From NCBI GenBank assembly GCA_017962745.1, contig JAGCUR010000017.1, positions 1 to 64,000 of the forward strand: a DNA stretch of 64,000 bases, read 5' to 3'. The stretch comes from Bacilli bacterium. GTDB taxonomy: Bacteria; Bacillota_I; Bacilli_A; ML615J-28; CAG-698. The notes beneath the pieces were generated by a model. It ran no database searches and had not been told where the DNA came from. It was given only the letters and a program-made list of their open reading frames with translations. The position numbers and the translations under genes are program-made. The first letter of the stretch is position 1. Every line of letters starts with the position of its first letter. Shown piece by piece: positions 46,670-60,477 of the stretch.

Positions 46670-47128
46670 TTACTTATTCTTTTTCTCAAGTTTTTCTCTA
46701 AATTCTCTAACAGTTTCTACTGTTAAAGGTTTTAGATTATAGTAGTTGTCATCGTTTCTTTCAGCTAAATAGCATGTATAATTACGTCTTTCAATATATT
46801 CTGCTATGGCTTCGTTTAATAACGAATTAATACTGATGCCTTCTTTTTTTGCGCGTTCGTCAACTTGTTTGTGTAAGGTTTTAGACATCCTCAAAGTTAC
46901 TTTACCACTATAATAATCATATTCATGCATAGAAGGTTCTGGGACAGCAATTTTTAGTTCCTTACATGCTTCAATATATGCATCTAAGTTTCCTCTTGCC
47001 TCTTCAATAGCTTCTTCAATTGTATCACCAACACCGATAACTGTTTCAAAATCAACATATTTAACTACATATTGTTTTCCATCAGCGCAATAATCTGTAA
47101 ATACTTCAAAGCGATAATCTCTTTCCAC
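46670..47128 (-). CDS. hicB: HicB antitoxin with ribbon-helix-helix domain
   Basis: The 152-residue antitoxin has the HicB partial RNase H fold at the N terminus (YVVKYVDFETVIGVGDTIEEA) and a ribbon-helix-helix DNA-binding domain (about 80-115, KVTLRMSKTLHKQVDERAKK). A charged tail of about 30 residues follows. It starts with GTG sharing a base with the hicA stop (TAGTG), behind GGAG. It should neutralise HicA and repress the pair through the palindrome upstream. Confidence 0.9.
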   Translation of the reverse strand: MERDYRFEVFTDYCADGKQYVVKYVDFETVIGVGDTIEEAIEEARGNLDAYIEACKELKIAVPEPSMHEYDYYSGKVTLRMSKTLHKQVDERAKKEGISINSLLNEAIAEYIERRNYTCYLAERNDDNYYNLKPLTVETVREFREKLEKKNK

Positions 47129-47379
47129 TATTTTTTCTCCTTTTTATATATTATTTCATTTGCAAGTTTCACATATGATGATTTAACAATTTTACCATTA
47201 ACAGTTGGTATACTAATTACTACTTCGCTGCTTTCTTGATAAAAAACATGATGCGATCCTTTTATAGATATTCTTTTAAACCCATTAATTTCTAGATACT
47301 TCATGAATTCAACAAAATCAACCTCCACCGGAAGCGGATATGTCGTGTATTTTTTAATAAGTTTTTCTTTTTGGCTCAA
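47128..47379 (-). CDS. hicA: HicA mRNA interferase toxin
   Basis: The 83-residue protein has the double-stranded RNA-binding-like HicA fold with the catalytic His in GFKRISIKGSHHVFY and the conserved VNGKIVKSSYVKLA end. HicA cuts mRNA independently of translation in known systems. It starts with TTG, supported by GAGGT six bases upstream; the next Met would trim the first 25 residues. Toxin-first order is usual for hicAB. Confidence 0.88.
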   Translation of the reverse strand: MSQKEKLIKKYTTYPLPVEVDFVEFMKYLEINGFKRISIKGSHHVFYQESSEVVISIPTVNGKIVKSSYVKLANEIIYKKEKK

Positions 47380-47547: not shown

Positions 47548-47579
47548 AACGTACCTATAACAAACGTTATAAGTACGTT
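47548..47579 (-). terminator. Terminator after the giant surface protein gene
   Basis: AACGTAC-C-TATAAC and GTTATA-A-GTACGTT form a 13-pair stem with one mismatch and a four-base loop; T residues follow on the minus strand. It lies seven bases after the stop of the 10-kb gene. Confidence 0.8.
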
Positions 47580-47585
47580 ATTTTG

Positions 47586-50500
47586 TTATCTAACAATGAA
47601 GTCAGGAACAACTTTCGCATTAGTATAAATTACGAAGTTGCTTGCATATGAAGAAATGATTGGATCATCTTCATTAAACAATGAAACAGATACTGTAACT
47701 TGATAATTTGAATATAATAAGTTACTTGCTTCAAATGCTGATCCTGTCTTTACTGTCATTGTAATAATTGGGAATGTGATGTAAGCACCATCATCTTCTA
47801 AAACCGATAGTGGCAACTCGATTGTACCAGCTTGCATTTGGGCAGCTGTAAGAGTTGTAGAACCGATCTTAATTGAAGTTATGTATGTGCTTAAATCTAA
47901 TGGTTCACCGTATGATGCTACCCCTGTCTCTGAATCATGTACTTTTTGTTTCAATGTGAATGAAACAGTAGCACTAGTATATCCTTCAACTTGTAATCTA
48001 ACCGATGTAGTATCTAATACTGCTAATAGATCAAAGGATGATGCCACAATGCCGCTTGGATTTAGGGCATTGATACCCATTGATGTGATATTACCTTGTC
48101 TATCTTCAACAGGATTCAAATATAGCGAAGCATATTCAGGAACATCTTCTGAGTAATATAGTCTAGCCGGTGTTTCGTTTGATGAAACAGTATTTTTACT
48201 TGCAGCCGTAGCTGAACGGATAAATGACAAGTTAGAAAAACCAGTTACAGTTGTACCATTATCTGGAAAGTTATCGCTTTGACCTGGGAACTGAGCACTA
48301 ATAGCTGCACTTGTACTATATGTAAGTGTTACTGTAGCACTAACATCAAAACTATTTCCGGTAGCAAAATAACTACTTAAACTACTTGAAACAAATTCAG
48401 CGTAGTTATTATTAATTCTAATGTCATCAGTTCCATATGCAGTTGTTATTGTTTGAGCGTTATCGACGCCATTTTCAGTTACTACATAATCGATTGTATA
48501 ACTTCCGGCACCAGCTGGGCTACCAGCTATAACTTTTACAATATTAGCTCCATCATATCTATTTAGTTGTACTAAGAAGCTTTGATAAATTGGAGTTGAT
48601 GCTATTAAGCTTTGTAGATATGATCTAATGTCAGCATCCATTCCTTCTTCTACAGTACGCAAGCCAAATGATGCACTCATATTGATTTCTAAGACGTTGT
48701 TTTCAAGTGTCATAATCGTTGTTTGATTTGGTGTATCACTTGATACGTCAAAATCAGTATGGTCAAAAATCTTACCCATAACTAAGTGAACCATTGTATG
48801 GCCACCTGTATCTAAGATCTTTGATGGATATTCAGTTTCCGAGAAACTTGCAGGAGATGTTATTAGATAATAATGGAATAAGCTATAGTCTGCTGAAGTC
48901 TCAGTGAAGAATGTTAAATAATAACTTTCTTCAATGTAATCTCCAGTAACTGTAATTGAATACTTAGTTCCTGTATCTTCACTTGTAGCTAGTTTGTAAT
49001 AAGTATTTCCTACTTTTACAGTAGCATGAGCTTCATCTGTCTCTACAAACATTCTATCATCGCCAGTTGATGATACTGTAATTTGCATCATATCGCATAA
49101 ATATTTAGGTTGGAAGGCTTCACCCGTAATTGAGAAGCTTCCATTGCTATAAACCATTGTCTTAAACTTCGATAAGTCTAGCGTTACGCCATCCGCAAGC
49201 AATGCATCGCCTAACCTTGCATAATATACTTTACCATCATTATCAGGTCCTGATAAAGATAACATCGTATTTGCATTGAGGCTAGATAATGTGTCACTCG
49301 TATTAGCTTTATATAAATATAAAGATTTTTGATAGAAACGCATTACGTTTTCGCCTGAGTTAATAGCGCTAGTCCATTCAGCTGCTGTTCTTGAATATGT
49401 ATATTTGAAGTAAGCAGTTACTGGACTACCGATATTTTCAATTAAAGCTTGACCATATTTATCAGTATATTCATCTTCTAAATATGTTGTTCCACCTTGA
49501 ACTGCAATATCAAAGCTATATGATAATACTTTCTTAACAAATACTGGAATGTAAACATGGAATGCTACATTAGCTGGTCTAGTAGGGTTATAGTAGCTAA
49601 TATCAATTAATGAGAATTGCATCTTACCACTATCAAACACGTTAAAGATTGTGTAGAATCCAGTTTCATCTCTTTGTAAGCTAGCACCAACTGTGCTAGA
49701 TACAAATTTATTTGTAGATGGATCATATGTCATCTTATAGATTGATACTGAGAAATGACCAGGCATATCATATGCATAATCATATGTAGAGTTAGTAATC
49801 ATTCTAATATAACTATTGATGTACATATTAGTATTACTATCTTCTAGTAATAATACTGGGAAGTCGATATCTAAGTATCTTGCGCCTTCTACTTGAACGA
49901 TTTCATCGCCAAACATTGATAACTTGCCTAAAGCAATTTGGGCATTATCATAGTTTGTAGCCCCACTACTACCAGTGTAGTATTTATTACCTACATAACT
50001 ATAAATATCGGCGTTATTGTTAGTCGGGCTATCGCTTAGAATATCGCTAATTGGTAAGCTATCAATTGTAATCTTACCACCAACTGGAGTTGCGAAGGCA
50101 TCACCGATGAAGTCGTATCCACCAATTGTTACTTTTGGATTAACAGTAACGTATGGTTCCTCGGCTACTACGTTTGCTGAAGTATTACCGATATTTGAAA
50201 AAGCATTGTTATCTAGGTGCATATTGTAATCAGTAAAGATAATTTGACCATCACCAAAGTTTTGCTTTGTATTATTTACAGTTACTTGGAATGTACTAGT
50301 ACCAAATTCATTGTTATTTGTTCCTGCTTTTCCGCATATCTTTCCGCAGTATTCATTATCACCAGTATATTTAATTGAAATACCAACGATTCTAATTGAA
50401 GAGCCGGCTCTATTGTTACCTACTACTTCACCAATTGATTGGTTATTAGCAGCAGTAGATTTATCAGTTACGCCGCCTTCTAGATGTTTAATAACATTAT

Positions 50501-53500
50501 CTTCAAGCAAAATGTTGTATCCACTGATTTTAACTCTGTTGTTGTTCGTATCTGATGGATTACATTCTGTTGCTGTGTTATTTACATTAGTATTAGCGGT
50601 TGTTGGGTGATTACCACCAGTTAGAGCACCAGCTATTCCACCAGTTCCACTATAATTATTCGAATTAGAACCATAATTAGTAATAATATTACATTCCTTA
50701 ATATAAATATTATTTAATTCATATGGCCAGTTAGTAGTTTCAGTATCTGATTTATTACTACCTGATACTAGTCCAAACATACCACCGGCATTACATTCTA
50801 TATTAGTAGTACCAGTATAAGTAGAAATGATATCGTAATTATGAATATTAACGTTCTCTAAGTCCATATAGAAATAGTCACGTCCAATTGCATAACCGAT
50901 TATTCCACCGGCATGTCTTGTACCTTTAATATAATAATTATCAGAATCACCATTTTCACCGTTAATCGTTACACCATCAAATAACACATTATATTTTTGG
51001 GTAAGTTTACCGATGATTCCACCGGCTGAATTAGCCGTGATATTGATCTTTGAAATTGAAGAATTAGTTATATTAATTAGGGCACCATGGGCTGATCCGA
51101 TAAATCCACCAGCATAGTTATTGTATGAAGGATTAGCAACACTATCATTACGTACTTTGATCACTGATGGTGTATCACCGCCTAGACCAAGAACATTGAT
51201 GTTACTAATATAAATTCTTCTTCCGCTACTACCTTGGATCTTATCGCCACCACCTTTACGTGCTGACCATGAAGATCCGATGATTCCACCAGCGCCAGTA
51301 ATGGCGTTTGCGCCATAGGCAAGAGGTTTTTCATTTGGCACACCACACTTCATTTCAATATTTTTAATATAAAGGTCAGTGCCGCTTGCTTTACCAGCAA
51401 TTTCTATTTTTTGACCCCAAATTCTACCAATTAAACCACCAGCTTGTAAGCCACCGACTACATTGACATAACCATAGGTTGTAGCTGAAGAATCATAATT
51501 GATGTAGTTTGATGCCAGGTCAGAATTATCAGCTCCCTTTTGCTCTAAAAGACCAATTAGGCCACCGGCTGTCTTAGCACCTTCTACTTCAAGTTTATTA
51601 AATGTAACATTATTGATAGTAATAATGTTTATTGTACAACCAATTAAACCACCAACTGATAATGTTGTAGCGTAGTTGACTGAATTTCCATCAATTGTAC
51701 CTTTGATCTTACTGTTACCATCTTGGTAATTATCACCATCATATTTATTGAAGTAATAATTACTTCTAGTACCATCAATAGAATATACATCGTAGAATAC
51801 GCTACCTGCTAATATTAAATTATTGAAAGTAGCACGAGTATTAGTACTATTAAGTTGGATGTAGTTAAACAAACCAAATCCGGCAGTTGATGTATCACCA
51901 CTGCTATCATATGCGCGGTATTTTGATACATATGCATGTGCATATTCTAAATAGCGCATATGTAGTGTAACTTGATATGCATATTTAGTTCCGTTTGATG
52001 CGCCATTTAGTGTTGATACACGCAATCTTAAATTTCCATTATCATAATAAATATTACCGATTCCTCTAAAGCCAGCAGGCACATCGCAATCACCTGTAAT
52101 ATTAACGGTAACTCCATCGTTATATGCTAGCATACGTGCAGGATAAGTACCCGAATCCGCAACTGTATATGCGCTAATGATATAAGGAGTCTTTGTTAAG
52201 CCACTACCATATAGCGAGTCTCCTTTAGCAAGTGTATAATCAGCTGCATCTGTACTACCGATAGATGTATATTTGGCTGTACCTCTTGCAGTAGTATCTG
52301 CTCTGTATGCTTGCCAGAAATCACTTAAGCCTGCATATGCCTTACTAGCCCCGCTTGCAGAACCAGCACCTGAATTTACGATAGCACTAAGGATAAACAT
52401 TGACTGTCCATTAGGCACATTTATAGTTTTACCATCGCTACTTACGCTAAGTTTATCACTATTTGAAGATGGTACTACTAAGTCAGCGATTGTGTAATTC
52501 TTTAAACCGTTCTTTAAAGTAGCTGTATCTTCAGTTCCATGGTATGTAGTAGTCTCATGGAATGCATAACCTGCTATTACTCTACCGATAATTGGGTTAA
52601 AGTATAAATAGCCTTCATTAGCAACTCTAGAATCTACTGTAGATGTAATACCTACATTTGATGATGTCATTCCTCTAAAGATAACTCCACCATTAAGTAG
52701 TGTACCTACATATCCACCAACTGGAATTAATGTAACATAGCGTGAAGTTGAAGCTGCTGTTAAGTTAAATGTAGTATTAGTGAATGTTACATTTACCGTA
52801 TCGATAATTGTATCTCCACCCATAACTTTAGCAATTAAAGCACCGTATGTTTCAATACCACCACTATAAGCATATAAATCAGAGCCAAGTGGAGCAGCTA
52901 AAGTAATAGTTACGGAGTTAACATCCACATTGATACCTTTGATTACACACCCCGTTGAATTATCAATTAAAGGTTTTTGTGATTTATTGGTAATGGTTGC
53001 ACCATTTCCAAAAATAACACCCTTAAATGGATAATCCGCATCACGTCCAAATGAATCATACGCATTGCTAACTAGTTCAGTATAGTTAGCTAGCTCGATA
53101 TCAGTTGTAATCTTGTAATATGCACCTGACAAGTATTGTCTAACTTTCGCATTAGCGATAGTTGTAGATCCATCTGAGAAGTTATCTAAGCCGAATGAAA
53201 ATTCGCTCTTAGTATAGTTTACACTAGCTGGTACATAATTATAAGCAATCGAATTATTGCTATTTGTAAGTGTACTAGGTAGTTCTATTTTTACGCTACT
53301 ACCTACATCAACACCAGCCATGATGTTTGAAATTATTGCTAATTGGTCGCCGGACTCAATTAAGTATGGGTCACCATACTTACCAGCACCTTGAATAGCT
53401 GTACTAAATGATGAGTTAATTCTTAATTCATGATAATTATTATTAGCTGCTGTATATACATATGGTAAGAAACCACTTGCAAATGAATACTCAGTTGTTG

Positions 53501-56500
53501 CCTCATATGTAGTTGGGTGAACATAATACTCACTAGCTGCATATTTCTTTTGACTATTTTGGTATTCAGGTGATACTGTTATTTCTTTTCCATAAGTAAC
53601 ATTATGGATAGCTGTAGTTGAGTTAGACCAATCATCAGTGATTTCAAAGCTATATGCGCCTGAACTTTCACCATAATATGCAAATGAATTAAGTAATGTT
53701 GCTCTACTAAAGATTGATTTAGTAGTGCCATATACTGTATCCATGTTGCCAAGTGAATTAACTGCGCTTCTACCATCGAACTTAATACCACTAAATGTTA
53801 AGTATATTGCTCTTGCATCAGCGCTACCAACATTACCGATTAAGCTTGATGCGGCATAAATTGATGCAAAGCCTGTATAACTATCTTGACTAGCATTAGT
53901 TAAAGTTAATTTTGTGTTTTTACCAACTTTATTAACGATTAGTGGTGCATATGCATTAGTAGTTAAGTCTGTACCGTCACTATTAACAATATGTAAGCCA
54001 CTTAAAGTTAAGTCGTTAAGTGTAATTCTAGCTGTGCTTGTATCCGAGTTACCAATTGTATTGGTAATGATAAAGCCACAGAATGAATCACTTATTTTTG
54101 GTACATTACCGCTTAATGTAGATGAAGTTATTTGAATTGTACCTAAATAATTTCTAAATAAGCCTGTATGCATCAAATAATGTTGGTTATCATTTGCTCT
54201 AGTAGAGCGCTTAGCGTTACTACCAGTATAAGGTAAGCTAACATTTGCTTCTGTTGCCTTATTATCTAATTTGATAGTTGCGTTATTAAATACTAAGTTC
54301 ACGCCACTCACATCAATTGGATAATATGATAGGCCGCTCATGTCTAAATCACCACTAAAAGTAGTGTCACTAACGCTAAACCAACCTGCTAAATCAGTAT
54401 AAGCATATCTATTTACTGACCAAACTAGGAATTTATATTTGCCAGTTGATGTATTACTTCTAGCATATGCTAGATTGTAATAATATCTAGTATTAGCATT
54501 TAATGCTTCAGCATCATTTTTACCATAAGTAGTTTTATTTAAATATGCATTAGCTGTAGTTGTAATTGATATTATAGAATTACCGTTATTAGTAATATCT
54601 TGGCTATTATATCTACTATCAGCTACTATTTCATCATAAACTGAAAACTTTGGATCAGTTGTAAAAGTTAAGCCGCTAATATTGTAGTTTGTAGATGTAT
54701 CATCTACATCTAGATATAAGGCTGATCCATAAGTATCAGCAGTCTTATGAGTTTTATTAGCTACAAATCCAAATGTATTACTAGTACTAACTGGTAGTGT
54801 ATAACTTACTGTACCTAAGCTAATATTATTAATTACCATATGACCAGTAGCAACTTGAGTTAAGAAACCAAAGTTATTGCTACTTCCTTGGGCAGCAACA
54901 GTTGCATTAACTGTTAAGCCATTAATATTTGTATCTAAGCTTATCCATTCTTTACCTAAAACACCACCGAAGGCATTATTCTTTGAATATCCTTTAACAT
55001 CTAGGTTAACTGTTACATTTTCAATATTAACAGTTCTAGATCCTTTTACATATTGAGTATTTGATGTATTAGCGATTAAGCCACCAAATACAGCTGGTCT
55101 ATTAGTATTAGCTGGATAATCATCGGTACCAGTACCATAATAATGTAAGCCGGCAGTTATCGAGCTAAAGTTAATAGTTTGATTGCTACCGCTATTCAAA
55201 TAGCCAATAGCACCACCAACATATGATTCATTTGTGGCATTATCAGAAATATCGATAATTGTAGGATATAGGTTAGATGAACCATTAATTGTTAAATTAA
55301 GGTTACTATCTACAGCAGCACCTATAGCTCCACCAATCTTAGAAATAACATTAGAGCTTGTAGCAAGGTTTACTGTAAAACTACTTGTCAGATTAGTGAT
55401 AGTTACGGTTCCACTTGCACTAGCAACTACACCTGCTTTTAAGTTAGTTGTTGCTTGACGAATGTTAAAGTAACCATTAACTGTTAAATTTTTAATTGTA
55501 GCATTATGTGCTTTCGCAAATAAACCATTTTGTAAATGGTTAATAATATAGCCATCACGTGTAGTAGTACCAATTGCAGTTCCACTGCTAGTTAGACCAT
55601 ATACTTCACCTGTTGCCATTGTGATAGTACGGTTATTACCATCAAATGTTCCACTAAATGTCATTCCAGCATCAGAATCGTTATCACGAGTTAAGCCAGT
55701 TAGACCAGTATTTGCTAAATTAATATCATTAGAAAGTGATAAGCTAGCATTTAAGATATTGCTACTTGAATTAGATGAAGCAAATCTTAAAGCGCCATTA
55801 GTTACATCAGTTCTAGTATTTAGGCTAATGTTTAAAGCAGTTTTCGCAAAATCTACGATTGTTCTCATACTTGCAACTTCTGCTTTTACAGTTACTGTAT
55901 GATTAGCATCATCAACTGTAAATAAATCTTCTTCACTTAAAGTTGATCCATCTAATCTTAATACTTGTCCCCAAGCATAAATGTCATCTAGAGTTTTATC
56001 ATCAGTAGTATTGCGTTTAAATGCCCAGCCATTATTAGTGCCTTCACCATCACCGATGGCATAAACTAATGATGCATCACGATATTTCATAATTTGGCCG
56101 CTATTCCAATCTACATATGAAGTATTAGATAAATCAGTTAAGCCTTTAAGTCTTAAGACACCTGTTGGTCCATTACCGATAAGAGCTGCTTCTACTTTTC
56201 CACTACCTTTTACAGTAATTGTTCCTGAAACATCTATAAATGGTCCTTTGTTACCCATTGAACCAATTAATCCACCATTGATTACACCTTCTGGTAAGTT
56301 TGTAGTACAGTTGCTTATGTTAACATATGATGCTGTACTAACATAACCAATTAAGCCGCCTGTAGCTTCGCCACCTGAAGATTTAATCTTCGATTCAGTA
56401 TTTGTAATATTAAATGCATAAGATAGGCTAGTTGATTGGTATTCTCCACAAACACCACCACGATATTTACCATTAGTGGCATTAAATTCAATAGCTTCAT

Positions 56501-57614
56501 TTGCGAAGTTTCCATCAAATGCAAATGTGCCACCGGCATTAATTAACATACCATAGATTGCACCAGATCTATTTGTAGATGAAACATTTAAATCTGGATC
56601 AATACTAAATGTATTTAGTAAAGATACTGATCTAGATGCATTAGTGTTTTTATAATAACCAAATACACCACCAGCACCATTATTAGAAGTAATTGTTCCA
56701 TTTATTTCATAATCAGTAACGCCATCTGCAAATTCAATCTCTACATTTTCTGCATGACCAACTAAGCCACCGGCATAGCTAGTAGCAGTGATTGTAGATA
56801 CTTTAGTATTATTATTTGATAATAATTTTAGTGTAGAATTGGCTTTCATTTGACCAACTAAGCCACCAGCGTGGCCTGATGTTGTTGAAACAGTAATTGG
56901 GTTACCGCTTGAAGTTGTTTTAACTTCTAGTGTTGCTCCTTCTCCTACTGTTCCGCAGATTAATCCTACATTTCCACTTGATACTACATTTAATGTAGAT
57001 GAGTTATTGAATTCAATCTCTACGCTTGCTCCATCGGCAATATCGCCGATTACGCTATCGTAGTTATATGCTTCAAGTCCACTACCAGCACCATCGATTG
57101 GCATCAATGTTACTTTCCATTTAGCTTTACTTGATCCAGCTAAAACGTGATTAGCAAATAGTGATCCGCTTGTAAGTAATAGTGGGTCAGGATCTACGTT
57201 TGCTCTTTCACGGATAATCTTTACTTCGCCACTTCCAAGTAACTTTAAGTCAGTTGTTACATAATCAAACAACGGACAGTTATATAAGTGGAATGTATCG
57301 ATTCCTGATGCAGGCGTTACGATAATACCTTCGAATGGTCTATCAGCTGAACCTAAACTGATAAAACCATCAGTAGTAACTACACGACCACTATTAATAG
57401 TAATTTCTAGTCGGTCACTTGGGTTTCTTGCGCCTGATTTATATGCAGCTGCATAAGTATTAAAAGCTTCGGCTGAATTGATTACATATGTTTGGGCTGC
57501 TTCAGCCTTAACAAATGGTAAATCAATAAATCTTGATAAGCCAATTAATGCAACGCAAATAAATGCGATAAAAATATTTAGTTTTATTAATTTTTTAGCA
57601 ATCTTGCTTCTCAT
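47586..57614 (-). CDS. 3,342-residue surface protein with GLUG-type repeats
   Basis: A 10-kb gene for a secreted giant. A signal peptide (residues about 1-40, ending near VKAEAAQ) precedes a long repeat region from about 200 to 2,430. Many short blocks there read AGGLVG, GGLIG, GGIIG or GGFIG between Thr/Asn/Ser-rich strands, as in GLUG-motif beta-solenoid proteins. The last 900 residues look like beta-sandwich domains without GLUG blocks. No LPXTG motif, S-layer repeat or C-terminal membrane helix is seen, so attachment is unexplained. It shares an operon with three small secreted proteins. A fibre, adhesin or sheath role is possible; nothing proves it. TAGGTGG precedes its ATG. Confidence 0.8.
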   Translation of the reverse strand: MRSKIAKKLIKLNIFIAFICVALIGLSRFIDLPFVKAEAAQTYVINSAEAFNTYAAAYKSGARNPSDRLEITINSGRVVTTDGFISLGSADRPFEGIIVTPASGIDTFHLYNCPLFDYVTTDLKLLGSGEVKIIRERANVDPDPLLLTSGSLFANHVLAGSSKAKWKVTLMPIDGAGSGLEAYNYDSVIGDIADGASVEIEFNNSSTLNVVSSGNVGLICGTVGEGATLEVKTTSSGNPITVSTTSGHAGGLVGQMKANSTLKLLSNNNTKVSTITATSYAGGLVGHAENVEIEFADGVTDYEINGTITSNNGAGGVFGYYKNTNASRSVSLLNTFSIDPDLNVSSTNRSGAIYGMLINAGGTFAFDGNFANEAIEFNATNGKYRGGVCGEYQSTSLSYAFNITNTESKIKSSGGEATGGLIGYVSTASYVNISNCTTNLPEGVINGGLIGSMGNKGPFIDVSGTITVKGSGKVEAALIGNGPTGVLRLKGLTDLSNTSYVDWNSGQIMKYRDASLVYAIGDGEGTNNGWAFKRNTTDDKTLDDIYAWGQVLRLDGSTLSEEDLFTVDDANHTVTVKAEVASMRTIVDFAKTALNISLNTRTDVTNGALRFASSNSSSNILNASLSLSNDINLANTGLTGLTRDNDSDAGMTFSGTFDGNNRTITMATGEVYGLTSSGTAIGTTTRDGYIINHLQNGLFAKAHNATIKNLTVNGYFNIRQATTNLKAGVVASASGTVTITNLTSSFTVNLATSSNVISKIGGAIGAAVDSNLNLTINGSSNLYPTIIDISDNATNESYVGGAIGYLNSGSNQTINFSSITAGLHYYGTGTDDYPANTNRPAVFGGLIANTSNTQYVKGSRTVNIENVTVNLDVKGYSKNNAFGGVLGKEWISLDTNINGLTVNATVAAQGSSNNFGFLTQVATGHMVINNISLGTVSYTLPVSTSNTFGFVANKTHKTADTYGSALYLDVDDTSTNYNISGLTFTTDPKFSVYDEIVADSRYNSQDITNNGNSIISITTTANAYLNKTTYGKNDAEALNANTRYYYNLAYARSNTSTGKYKFLVWSVNRYAYTDLAGWFSVSDTTFSGDLDMSGLSYYPIDVSGVNLVFNNATIKLDNKATEANVSLPYTGSNAKRSTRANDNQHYLMHTGLFRNYLGTIQITSSTLSGNVPKISDSFCGFIITNTIGNSDTSTARITLNDLTLSGLHIVNSDGTDLTTNAYAPLIVNKVGKNTKLTLTNASQDSYTGFASIYAASSLIGNVGSADARAIYLTFSGIKFDGRSAVNSLGNMDTVYGTTKSIFSRATLLNSFAYYGESSGAYSFEITDDWSNSTTAIHNVTYGKEITVSPEYQNSQKKYAASEYYVHPTTYEATTEYSFASGFLPYVYTAANNNYHELRINSSFSTAIQGAGKYGDPYLIESGDQLAIISNIMAGVDVGSSVKIELPSTLTNSNNSIAYNYVPASVNYTKSEFSFGLDNFSDGSTTIANAKVRQYLSGAYYKITTDIELANYTELVSNAYDSFGRDADYPFKGVIFGNGATITNKSQKPLIDNSTGCVIKGINVDVNSVTITLAAPLGSDLYAYSGGIETYGALIAKVMGGDTIIDTVNVTFTNTTFNLTAASTSRYVTLIPVGGYVGTLLNGGVIFRGMTSSNVGITSTVDSRVANEGYLYFNPIIGRVIAGYAFHETTTYHGTEDTATLKNGLKNYTIADLVVPSSNSDKLSVSSDGKTINVPNGQSMFILSAIVNSGAGSASGASKAYAGLSDFWQAYRADTTARGTAKYTSIGSTDAADYTLAKGDSLYGSGLTKTPYIISAYTVADSGTYPARMLAYNDGVTVNITGDCDVPAGFRGIGNIYYDNGNLRLRVSTLNGASNGTKYAYQVTLHMRYLEYAHAYVSKYRAYDSSGDTSTAGFGLFNYIQLNSTNTRATFNNLILAGSVFYDVYSIDGTRSNYYFNKYDGDNYQDGNSKIKGTIDGNSVNYATTLSVGGLIGCTINIITINNVTFNKLEVEGAKTAGGLIGLLEQKGADNSDLASNYINYDSSATTYGYVNVVGGLQAGGLIGRIWGQKIEIAGKASGTDLYIKNIEMKCGVPNEKPLAYGANAITGAGGIIGSSWSARKGGGDKIQGSSGRRIYISNINVLGLGGDTPSVIKVRNDSVANPSYNNYAGGFIGSAHGALINITNSSISKINITANSAGGIIGKLTQKYNVLFDGVTINGENGDSDNYYIKGTRHAGGIIGYAIGRDYFYMDLENVNIHNYDIISTYTGTTNIECNAGGMFGLVSGSNKSDTETTNWPYELNNIYIKECNIITNYGSNSNNYSGTGGIAGALTGGNHPTTANTNVNNTATECNPSDTNNNRVKISGYNILLEDNVIKHLEGGVTDKSTAANNQSIGEVVGNNRAGSSIRIVGISIKYTGDNEYCGKICGKAGTNNNEFGTSTFQVTVNNTKQNFGDGQIIFTDYNMHLDNNAFSNIGNTSANVVAEEPYVTVNPKVTIGGYDFIGDAFATPVGGKITIDSLPISDILSDSPTNNNADIYSYVGNKYYTGSSGATNYDNAQIALGKLSMFGDEIVQVEGARYLDIDFPVLLLEDSNTNMYINSYIRMITNSTYDYAYDMPGHFSVSIYKMTYDPSTNKFVSSTVGASLQRDETGFYTIFNVFDSGKMQFSLIDISYYNPTRPANVAFHVYIPVFVKKVLSYSFDIAVQGGTTYLEDEYTDKYGQALIENIGSPVTAYFKYTYSRTAAEWTSAINSGENVMRFYQKSLYLYKANTSDTLSSLNANTMLSLSGPDNDGKVYYARLGDALLADGVTLDLSKFKTMVYSNGSFSITGEAFQPKYLCDMMQITVSSTGDDRMFVETDEAHATVKVGNTYYKLATSEDTGTKYSITVTGDYIEESYYLTFFTETSADYSLFHYYLITSPASFSETEYPSKILDTGGHTMVHLVMGKIFDHTDFDVSSDTPNQTTIMTLENNVLEINMSASFGLRTVEEGMDADIRSYLQSLIASTPIYQSFLVQLNRYDGANIVKVIAGSPAGAGSYTIDYVVTENGVDNAQTITTAYGTDDIRINNNYAEFVSSSLSSYFATGNSFDVSATVTLTYSTSAAISAQFPGQSDNFPDNGTTVTGFSNLSFIRSATAASKNTVSSNETPARLYYSEDVPEYASLYLNPVEDRQGNITSMGINALNPSGIVASSFDLLAVLDTTSVRLQVEGYTSATVSFTLKQKVHDSETGVASYGEPLDLSTYITSIKIGSTTLTAAQMQAGTIELPLSVLEDDGAYITFPIITMTVKTGSAFEASNLLYSNYQVTVSVSLFNEDDPIISSYASNFVIYTNAKVVPDFIVR

Positions 57615-57647
57615 AAAACCACCTATTTATTTATATAAGTTTATTTT

Positions 57648-58622
57648 TTAATCAAAATCAAATGTTACAATTTCACTTTCCATATCCTGCCAAGTAACGC
57701 TACTTCCAATATCTATCTTATAGAACTGTATTTCATATCTATTAGTAGTACTTGAGTTTACCGGAAATGTTATTGAAGAATTTGAGGAATCATACTGTGC
57801 TCCAGTTATAGCTAACAACTGGCTTAATGAAACATAATTCATTTCTAGTTTTGTAGAATCCCAGGTAATTGTTACTGTACCAGATCCAAATCCGGTAACT
57901 AAATAATTATAACCATCATATTCATAAGGTTGAATACTAGTTTGTTCATCACTAAATGATCCTGACCAACTATTGTTTTCACCTTCTACCCTTACATCAG
58001 CTTTAAAGATACCAGTTAGTGTTGGTAAGCTTTCATCAGTTGGTGTAACAGTTACTTCTAAATATAAATTAGGTTTAACTGATGCAAAGTTTTTAGTGAA
58101 TATTAATTCATAAACATCAGCTGCAGCTTTTTTACCAGCTATTGTTTTAGTGAATGAATTAGATACTGTAGTATTGTTAAATGTCTTAGTCTCTTCTCCA
58201 TTCTTTAGGGTAATTACATAACTATTATCTGGTACATCAGATGTAGATGCAGCTACATAATCACCATTAACATACTTCACAAACCTAGCGCTTAGAGTAT
58301 ATGTAACACTATTTGGGTTAGGTTCTGTTTGTTTACCTTGCGCGTAGTTACATACTGTAAGTACTGCTGCTGGGTTTACACCATTTGCGGATGCATCAGT
58401 TGTATAAACTATTTTAATGTTATCTTTACTATTTCCTTTTAGTAAGTAGTTAGATGAGAATCTAATACCTACTTCATATGGGGCAATGGTACGCTGCGCA
58501 TGTAGCGAATGCGTATATGCCGCATAAACGCCTATTCCGATTAAAGTTAATAAAACGAATGCTAAAACAAAACTTAGCACTATTCTATATAACTTTTTAC
58601 CTTGCTTTAACATTCCTTTCAT
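57648..58622 (-). CDS. Secreted protein of the giant-protein operon (324 aa)
   Basis: A 324-residue protein with one N-terminal hydrophobic segment (about 14-34, ending VYAAYTHSLHAQ) and an all-beta, Thr/Asn-rich remainder. The pattern of a hydrophobic stretch ending in Y-A-A-Y recalls SipW-processed TasA/camelysin-type signal regions, but no homology to TasA can be claimed. AAAGGA precedes the ATG. It lies 33 bases before the giant gene. Its C-terminal half (about 240-324) resembles a beta-sandwich with VTITWDSTKLEMNY strands. Confidence 0.65.
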   Translation of the reverse strand: MKGMLKQGKKLYRIVLSFVLAFVLLTLIGIGVYAAYTHSLHAQRTIAPYEVGIRFSSNYLLKGNSKDNIKIVYTTDASANGVNPAAVLTVCNYAQGKQTEPNPNSVTYTLSARFVKYVNGDYVAASTSDVPDNSYVITLKNGEETKTFNNTTVSNSFTKTIAGKKAAADVYELIFTKNFASVKPNLYLEVTVTPTDESLPTLTGIFKADVRVEGENNSWSGSFSDEQTSIQPYEYDGYNYLVTGFGSGTVTITWDSTKLEMNYVSLSQLLAITGAQYDSSNSSITFPVNSSTTNRYEIQFYKIDIGSSVTWQDMESEIVTFDFD

Positions 58623-58633
58623 AATTTTCCTTT

Positions 58634-59365
58634 CTATTCACTTATTTGGCTAGAGAATACTCTCGCCGCAATACAAATAATATCTGTTTCTCTATCGTTT
58701 ACTTGTTTATTACCAATATATAATCTTAAAATGAAGTAATGATTAAATGTGGCACCTGATCCGGTTTCAATTGTGGCATTAGTTTGCCAGTAAAGTGGTA
58801 CCGCATTTTTATCTACATGTGTATATGTATCATAAGTATCTTTGTAATAATTATTACTAGAACCCATAATACCGATAATACTACTACCATCTTGGTTTTT
58901 ATAACTACCGTTAATCTTACCATTTTGTTTGATGTAATATTTAATGTTTTGTGGATTTCCACTGCTTGGGTGAGTAGTATAAATTACTTCTCCTGCTGGA
59001 TCAGTGCTTTTTTCTGATGCATTGGTTGTTGCTCTAAACAAATCAAATGTAAATTCGTTATTAGTAGTAAATGCTAGTTGAATTTTATAATGTCTTACAA
59101 ATTCTCCTGATACACTAAATACATAATCTACATATCTTTGTGAACTTGTTGCATCGATTCCTTCAAATGATAAGTATCTAATGTCTTCTTGATTACCAGC
59201 ACCAATATATAGTGATGTAGCTGTATTTACCGGAGCATAAATAGTTAATGAATGCCCTGCTAGCCATGCATATACTGGTACTACTATTAAAGTAGCAAAA
59301 GTAAAAAACATCGCAATGCTTAAACCGATAATCTTAAGTTTAAGGAATAGCATCTTATTTTTCAT
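58634..59365 (-). CDS. Secreted protein of the giant-protein operon (243 aa)
   Basis: A 243-residue protein with a hydrophobic N-terminal segment (about 8-34, ending PVYAWLAGHSL). The mature part is rich in Tyr, Asn and Thr with predicted strands, and has one late Cys. The AWLAG motif after the hydrophobic stretch is shared with the 304-residue neighbour (GWLAG). GAAAGGAG precedes the ATG. Family not recognised; a surface-fibre subunit is conceivable. Confidence 0.65.
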   Translation of the reverse strand: MKNKMLFLKLKIIGLSIAMFFTFATLIVVPVYAWLAGHSLTIYAPVNTATSLYIGAGNQEDIRYLSFEGIDATSSQRYVDYVFSVSGEFVRHYKIQLAFTTNNEFTFDLFRATTNASEKSTDPAGEVIYTTHPSSGNPQNIKYYIKQNGKINGSYKNQDGSSIIGIMGSSNNYYKDTYDTYTHVDKNAVPLYWQTNATIETGSGATFNHYFILRLYIGNKQVNDRETDIICIAARVFSSQISE

Positions 59366-59393
59366 AATATGCTCCTTTCTTTATAATTTATTA

Positions 59394-60308
59394 TTATTTT
59401 AAAGTAATTACTAAAAAGTGAATATTATCACCAATTAACTGATCGCCATCATTATAGCCATCACTTAATAAATCTTCTTCCTCTTCATTTGCATTAGTAG
59501 CAAAGAAATATTCTGGATGAGAAGATATATATGTACCAACTGCTGCTGGATATTTATTGTTTGGATCATCTGATTGTAAATCATGGATGATATCACTATA
59601 AAGTAGTGGCCATTCCCAGTAAATTGTTAGTTTATAATAGTCCTCTCCATCTACTGTTACCATTGATTTACCAGCAGTATTATAAGTAATGTGATTTCCT
59701 AAGAAGTTACTAAATTTAGTAAGTTGTCCACCTGACATAGTTCTAGATCCAAAGAATAAGATATGACCTTTAAGCATATCTAATGCTTGGTTGTAAGCAT
59801 CATCATTTTCCGGAATTACTAAAGATAACTCGTTAGTTGTTTCATTATATGTTTTTTTATATCCGCTTAGTTCAATATCAAATGATATATTTATATCCCC
59901 TTCCACAAGTGGTTTGATATAAAGGGTAAATGTACCATAAGATCCGGGAACTAGGAAATATACATTTTCATACATTACTTCGTTATCTAGTTCTAATGCT
60001 AATGCGGAATTAGTATATAGAACTGCTGGATCGGTTTCATTAAAAGCTTTACCTGATGCTTTTAATTCATTCTTAAAATCATCAATACCTTCATATACAT
60101 TATTATCATCATATTTAGTTGTCTTAGCGATGTATATTTCATATTCATCAGTTTCCGAGATAATATGCATTCCATCGCCTTCAGCTCCTTGAAGACCTGC
60201 TAGCCAACCAAATGTGATCGATAAGTATAAAAAGCTACAGCCTAGAAACATAATACCAGTAATAGCTAACATACATATTGATTTAAACAATTGTTTGTTT
60301 AGTTTCAT
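59394..60308 (-). CDS. Secreted protein of the giant-protein operon (304 aa)
   Basis: First gene of the four-gene operon. The N-terminal hydrophobic segment (about 9-36) ends in ITFGWLAGLQG, the same WLAG junction as its neighbour. The mature part is acidic and contains VPGSYGTFTLYIKPLVEGD, a strand pattern common in camelysin/TasA-like proteins, where a G-x-Y/F-x-x-x-I core is followed by an Asn/Asp-rich loop. It has no cysteines after the signal region. GGAG precedes the ATG. Function unknown. Confidence 0.65.
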   Translation of the reverse strand: MKLNKQLFKSICMLAITGIMFLGCSFLYLSITFGWLAGLQGAEGDGMHIISETDEYEIYIAKTTKYDDNNVYEGIDDFKNELKASGKAFNETDPAVLYTNSALALELDNEVMYENVYFLVPGSYGTFTLYIKPLVEGDINISFDIELSGYKKTYNETTNELSLVIPENDDAYNQALDMLKGHILFFGSRTMSGGQLTKFSNFLGNHITYNTAGKSMVTVDGEDYYKLTIYWEWPLLYSDIIHDLQSDDPNNKYPAAVGTYISSHPEYFFATNANEEEEDLLSDGYNDGDQLIGDNIHFLVITLK

Positions 60309-60440: not shown

Positions 60441-60477
60441 AAAAAAACTATTAATAACCGCTAGGTTATTAATAGTT
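60441..60477 (-). terminator. Terminator after the Fic gene
   Basis: A perfect 14-base stem AACTATTAATAACC/GGTTATTAATAGTT with a four-base loop, followed by seven T on the minus strand. Confidence 0.92.

Follow-up and report, generated by a model that had tools for sequence, protein, structure and literature searches.

The DNA analysed here (the window) is a stretch of 64,000 nucleotides from a member of the Bacilli, and it carries four ORFs on its minus strand, at the places given by an earlier sequence-only reading, that encode three small proteins (S1, S2 and S3) and one giant protein. The features of the locus are the following:

60446..60477, minus strand: terminator-like hairpin 5' of S1, which closes the preceding Fic gene
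59394..60308, minus strand: ORF of S1, the first small protein, 304 aa
60207..60308, minus strand: S1 signal segment, residues 1-34, predicted cut site
58634..59365, minus strand: ORF of S2, the best-conserved small protein, 243 aa
59267..59365, minus strand: S2 signal segment, residues 1-33, predicted cut site
57648..58622, minus strand: ORF of S3, the third small protein, 324 aa
58521..58622, minus strand: S3 signal segment, residues 1-34, predicted cut site
47586..57614, minus strand: ORF of the giant, 3,342 aa
57495..57614, minus strand: signal peptide of the giant, ordinary signal peptidase I type, ending FVKAEA/A (slash, predicted cut site)
56262..56867, minus strand: first of two clusters of GLUG-like glycine blocks, six blocks, aa 250-451
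50772..51653, minus strand: second of the two clusters, eight blocks, aa 1988-2281
47586..47723, minus strand: conserved C-terminus of the giant, carrying a YTNA that does not vary among nine giants
47548..47579, minus strand: terminator-like hairpin immediately 3' of the giant

The genes are separated by gaps of 28, 11 and 33 bp, and because terminator-like hairpins, each of 14 pairs with a T run, lie at both ends of the array, we regard S1-S2-S3-giant as a single bounded operon. A promoter scan gave no excess of sites (68, as compared with 73 in shuffled sequences). Each of the four proteins has a single hydrophobic segment, at the N-terminus, and none further on. Searches of Pfam and NCBIfam gave none of them a score above a curated cut-off, and a PDB sequence search with profiles of all four returned no notable match. 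Among the neighbouring genes, a HicA/HicB-like pair lies 3' of the giant in the window (46670-47379) and 5' of S1 in a sister species (L013:16565-17268), while the Fic gene found 5' of S1 in the window is missing from the sister-species locus. Elsewhere in the window, at 13050-35059, there is a carbohydrate-use cluster with two ABC transporter permease sets, solute-binding proteins and beta-glucanase-like enzymes, which, as read from the translations, would be consistent with glucan use.

The junctions that follow the signal segments of the small proteins are TFG/WL in S1, VYA/WL in S2 and VYA/AY in S3. Among relatives of S1 and S2, a small residue ends the hydrophobic segment and is followed by an invariant tryptophan (W35 in 50 of 50 S1 sequences, W34 in 51 of 51 S2 sequences), and the next residue is F in 42, L in 5, I in 2 and Y in 1 of the S1 relatives, and F in 38, L in 11 and Y in 2 of those of S2. 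Among S3 relatives the second mature residue is Y or F in all 48. S1, S2 and S3 show the pattern of SipW-dependent signals, in which an AxA-like site precedes an aromatic second mature residue, and we predict that their junctions are SipW-type cleavage sites. Signal peptidase I of E. coli is known to be inefficient when the second mature residue is aromatic, and SipW is known to cleave TasA, which has a residue of this kind (PMC10269814). The WLAG junction to which the sequence-only reading had drawn attention is a local feature of S1 and S2 in the window, the conserved part being W followed by F, L, I or Y; since W is invariant among the relatives and the SipW pattern applies, WLAG can be understood as the variant that a general cleavage site takes at this locus. 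None of the NCBIfam models for SipW-cognate proteins matches S1-S3. When the profiles of the three were compared with one another, two of the pairs aligned in the signal region only and the third alignment was weak. A common origin was therefore rejected, and we treat S1, S2 and S3 as three different proteins because they exhibit no convincing mutual homology in their mature regions. A phage tail tube identity for S1 was also considered and set aside, the Pfam match (E 0.07) being at the level of chance.

AlphaFold2 models bear out, for S1 and S2, the earlier suggestion that the mature parts of the small proteins are rich in beta structure. The S1 model (pLDDT 88) has a helix at residues 5-37 and a free segment at 39-48, followed by strands mixed with helices, and the S2 model (pLDDT 85) consists mainly of strands with some helices. 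In both models order is lowest in the stretch just after the junction (residues 39-48 in S1 and 41-47 in S2), which would be compatible with a free donor strand. Fold searches with S1 and S2 gave no significant match to TasA or to any solved structure, the TM values for TasA being 0.17-0.21. The TasA fibre (8aur) took third place in the S1 search at a non-significant E of 0.05, a model-based result that we treat as a lead only. Membership of S1-S3 in the TasA family was rejected on the non-significant fold searches with S1 and S2 and on the lack of Pfam, NCBIfam or PDB sequence matches.

A scan of one genome per species, covering 84,980 species with two peptide patterns, detected the four genes together in other genomes, at 52 loci distributed among the Bacilli and Clostridia. 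When ORFs were re-called in loci with enough DNA, and with the window included, S1 was found to precede S2 directly in 52 of 53 loci, the exception (L046) being one in which S1 is broken into two ORFs; S3 followed S2 in 49 of 49, and a homologue of the giant was present in 45 of 45. The linkage of the four genes is thus nearly inseparable. The sequence-only reading had named two observations that would speak against a coherent unit, namely a wide occurrence of the small genes without the giant and the assignment of all the genes to unrelated known families. Both were looked for; the giant occurs in every one of the 45 checkable loci and no known family was matched, so that the set stands as the coherent unit it was thought to be. 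In several Ruminococcus loci (L054-L068) there is an extra S1-like gene 5' of S1, mostly of low similarity to S1.

The carriers are mostly rumen Bacilli and Clostridia, and include the cultured species Ruminococcus flavefaciens and R. albus. A ruminant gut site is named in 22 of the 52 record titles, and 15 have RUG or RUI names, of which RUG stands for rumen uncultured genomes; the three Ruminococcus carrier strains are rumen isolates. Since the scan depended on two peptide patterns, distant or non-rumen relatives may have been missed. S2 occurs in 6 of the 43 genomes of the order to which the window genome belongs, and all six retain the order S1-S2-S3-giant as far as their contigs reach. 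A sample of 392 genomes from the phylum yielded two real carriers only, and the weak S2 matches in two further genomes (G247 and G329) were discarded, for they cover the first 79 positions only and look like matches to the signal. In a tree of S2 the Bacilli sequences require, with strong support, at least two separate places among the Clostridia, which suggests transfer between the classes; the placement of one of the genomes (G038) could also reflect a binning error, since that genome is 6% contaminated.

The giant is rich in Ser, Thr, Asn and Gly and has few cysteines. Its full-length homologues have 3,296-3,676 aa and are 32-74% identical to it, with conservation along the whole length. 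Besides the two clusters listed above, it has three further GLUG-like blocks at aa 727-883. The "dozens" of blocks originally reported were an overcount: the strict pattern GG(L/I)(V/I)G occurs 10 times, as compared with 0.05 in shuffled sequences, and a looser pattern 17 times, as compared with 0.7. The Pfam GLUG model does not match the giant. That the giant has no visible anchor was confirmed, in that none of nine giants has LPXTG within the last 80 residues and Pfam detected no anchor domain or S-layer domain in them; a C-terminal hydrophobic segment is absent from S1, S2, S3 and the giant. One might speculate that the invariant YTNA end serves as an attachment strand.

The composition of the giant could be taken to mean that it is itself a fibre, a sheath or an S-layer component, for which the small proteins would be chaperones or tip proteins. 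Its great length, its richness in glycine, Ser, Thr and Asn, its few cysteines, its repeated glycine blocks and the absence of a zinc-protease motif would all suit such a role, yet there is a single giant gene with two short repeat clusters only, the protein shows no obvious repetition over most of its 3,342 residues, and Pfam found no S-layer domain; we consider this reading quite improbable. The sole Pfam match of the giant, to Peptidase_M26_N at aa 677-742, lies below threshold (20.5 bits, cut-off 27.7) and is what might recommend the giant as a secreted enzyme resembling the IgA1 proteases. The match is seen in only one of the nine giants, and none of the nine has an HExxH zinc motif or an M26 catalytic domain, so that the missing zinc motif contradicts this reading, which we rejected as exceedingly unlikely.

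No SipW is encoded in the window, as had been noted, but the search for a SipW-type peptidase in the rest of the genome led to two SipW-like peptidases on another contig, C8:

L004:7543-17676 and L005:76-11110: C8 core and downstream set

Both have Ser and His motifs and a THRI motif, and they score 51 and 33.5 bits against TIGR02228 (cut-off 51.85), the better of them thus lying slightly under the curated cut-off; both are far below the cut-off of the stricter SipW equivalog. They flank an McrB-like AAA+ protein (510 aa) and a coiled-coil protein (861 aa), with which they make up what we call the core, and the core is followed by three small proteins, whose junctions resemble those of S1-S3, and by a giant of 3,400 aa. 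The unit in the window is accordingly not "self-contained", as had been proposed, since the peptidases that would process its products are encoded elsewhere, together with the McrB-like AAA+ protein and its coiled-coil partner. The dual-SipW/AAA+ core and the four-gene unit co-occur. All 20 carriers tested have matches to the SipW-type model, 18 of them above the cut-off, and a pair of SipW genes lies on the same contig as S2, at a distance of 4-25 kb, in 10 of 14 sampled Clostridia, for which eight of the SipW-pair regions were read gene by gene. The McrB-like ATPase of the core is present in 32 of 34 carriers. SipW-family matches are common in the order without the four-gene unit (42 of 43 genomes), so that co-occurrence with SipW alone is a weak argument. 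The ATPase is found in 25 of the 43 genomes of the order and in all six carriers, an outcome with a chance of ~0.03 if relatedness is ignored, and the core is thereby more widespread in the order than the unit itself (6 of 43).

Our preferred interpretation of these observations, to which we assign a probability of about 0.6, is that the products of the four genes belong to a single structure on the outside of the cell, in which SipW-processed subunits are assembled with a giant adhesin; a fibre or sheath is a plausible form for it. The Sec route would carry S1-S3 out as precursors still tethered to the membrane, and one of the two SipW-type peptidases encoded elsewhere would cut them free. 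The N-terminal segment freed by cleavage might then serve to join the subunits to each other, and probably also to the giant; the simplest mechanism would be the donor-strand exchange of TasA, which polymerises via an N-terminal donor strand directly after the cut (PMC9674648). The giant would be exported via ordinary signal peptidase I and kept at the cell surface through the small proteins, so that its long body could extend outward as an adhesin or fibre, with plant particles or neighbouring rumen cells as plausible targets. A rather unlikely alternative, though one deserving more weight than those raised above for the giant, is that S1-S3 do not polymerise and instead make up a compact platform, associated with the membrane or the wall, which takes up the giant and displays it as the sole functional adhesin. 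It would account for the presence of three unlike small proteins, from a single gene each, at nearly every locus, for the lack of a duplicated major subunit in the window, and for the conservation of the giant from end to end. Against it, the SipW-dependent proteins studied so far, TasA, BsaA and CalY, do polymerise (PMC9674648, PMC7395162, PMC13082335), and an additional S1-like gene is found beside S1 in some Ruminococcus loci.

The assembled surface structure that we favour invites comparison with the TasA/TapA/SipW system of Bacillus subtilis, with which it shares a dedicated SipW-type peptidase, an aromatic residue immediately beyond the predicted cut, and small, beta-rich secreted proteins whose N-terminal segment would be free once cleaved. 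It differs in that S1-S3 have no detectable sequence homology or significant fold homology to that system, in that there are three dissimilar small proteins with a partner of 3,300-3,700 aa, and in a core with two SipW copies, an McrB-like AAA+ protein and a coiled-coil protein. The BsaA/SipW pellicle of Clostridium perfringens and the CalY/TasA/CapP system of Bacillus cereus are similar in being SipW-linked and sortase-independent, with accessory secreted proteins, and BsaA and CalY form extracellular filaments (PMC7395162, PMC13082335); they differ in that their descriptions, as far as consulted, report no giant or AAA+ core. Proteins with GLUG motifs and the N-terminal region of the M26 IgA1 proteases resemble the giant in their short glycine blocks and through the weak Pfam match, from which the giant is separated by its sub-threshold score and by having neither a protease motif nor a Pfam GLUG match, while sortase-assembled pili and LPXTG surface proteins differ in the sorting signal that the giants lack. 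We found no paper in the open-licence literature that describes such a SipW/giant system, and the set probably encodes a fibre or adhesin so far undescribed. If so, many rumen Firmicutes, including cultured cellulose degraders, would have an unstudied surface structure in common, on which biofilm formation or adhesion to plant particles could depend, and the biology of SipW-dependent fibres would be widened beyond simple TasA-like systems to include structures of several subunits with giant partners, and linked to an AAA+ ATPase. These proposals are directly testable, since carrier strains of R. flavefaciens (YAD2003) and R. albus (KH2T6) are cultured.

Seven core regions of the order were read, and in six of them small SipW-type proteins and a giant follow the core; no small proteins or giant lie within the DNA covered for the seventh. 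The core-linked giants have 2,000-3,400 aa, one being cut by a contig end, and belong to several unrelated families. The giant on C8 was not found in any other genome of the order, and it was rejected as a paralogue of the window giant since the two have no similarity. In a sister species (G001) the AAA+ protein of the core is 96% identical, and the giant beside the core is a different, unrelated one. The unit in the window appears to be one cassette arranged in this general way, located on a contig separate from the core. On this basis one may imagine, tentatively and with the odds somewhat against it, a new class of surface machine in which the dual-SipW, McrB-like AAA+ and coiled-coil core exports or assembles interchangeable cassettes, of which the window operon would be one that is widely shared in the rumen; that each cassette combines roughly three small proteins of the SipW type with a single giant is, within such a scheme, an equally tentative suggestion. 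Variations of the core itself were also seen. In several Ruminococcus genomes (L111-L120) a single ORF of ~983-1,007 aa encodes the coiled-coil protein with the second SipW-like peptidase fused to its end, and core regions of the Ruminococcus type (L111-L125) also encode a 'STYAWFTMN' protein together with two small conserved proteins, of the TVGGMRAVELYYR and DVLELRRTAKE types.
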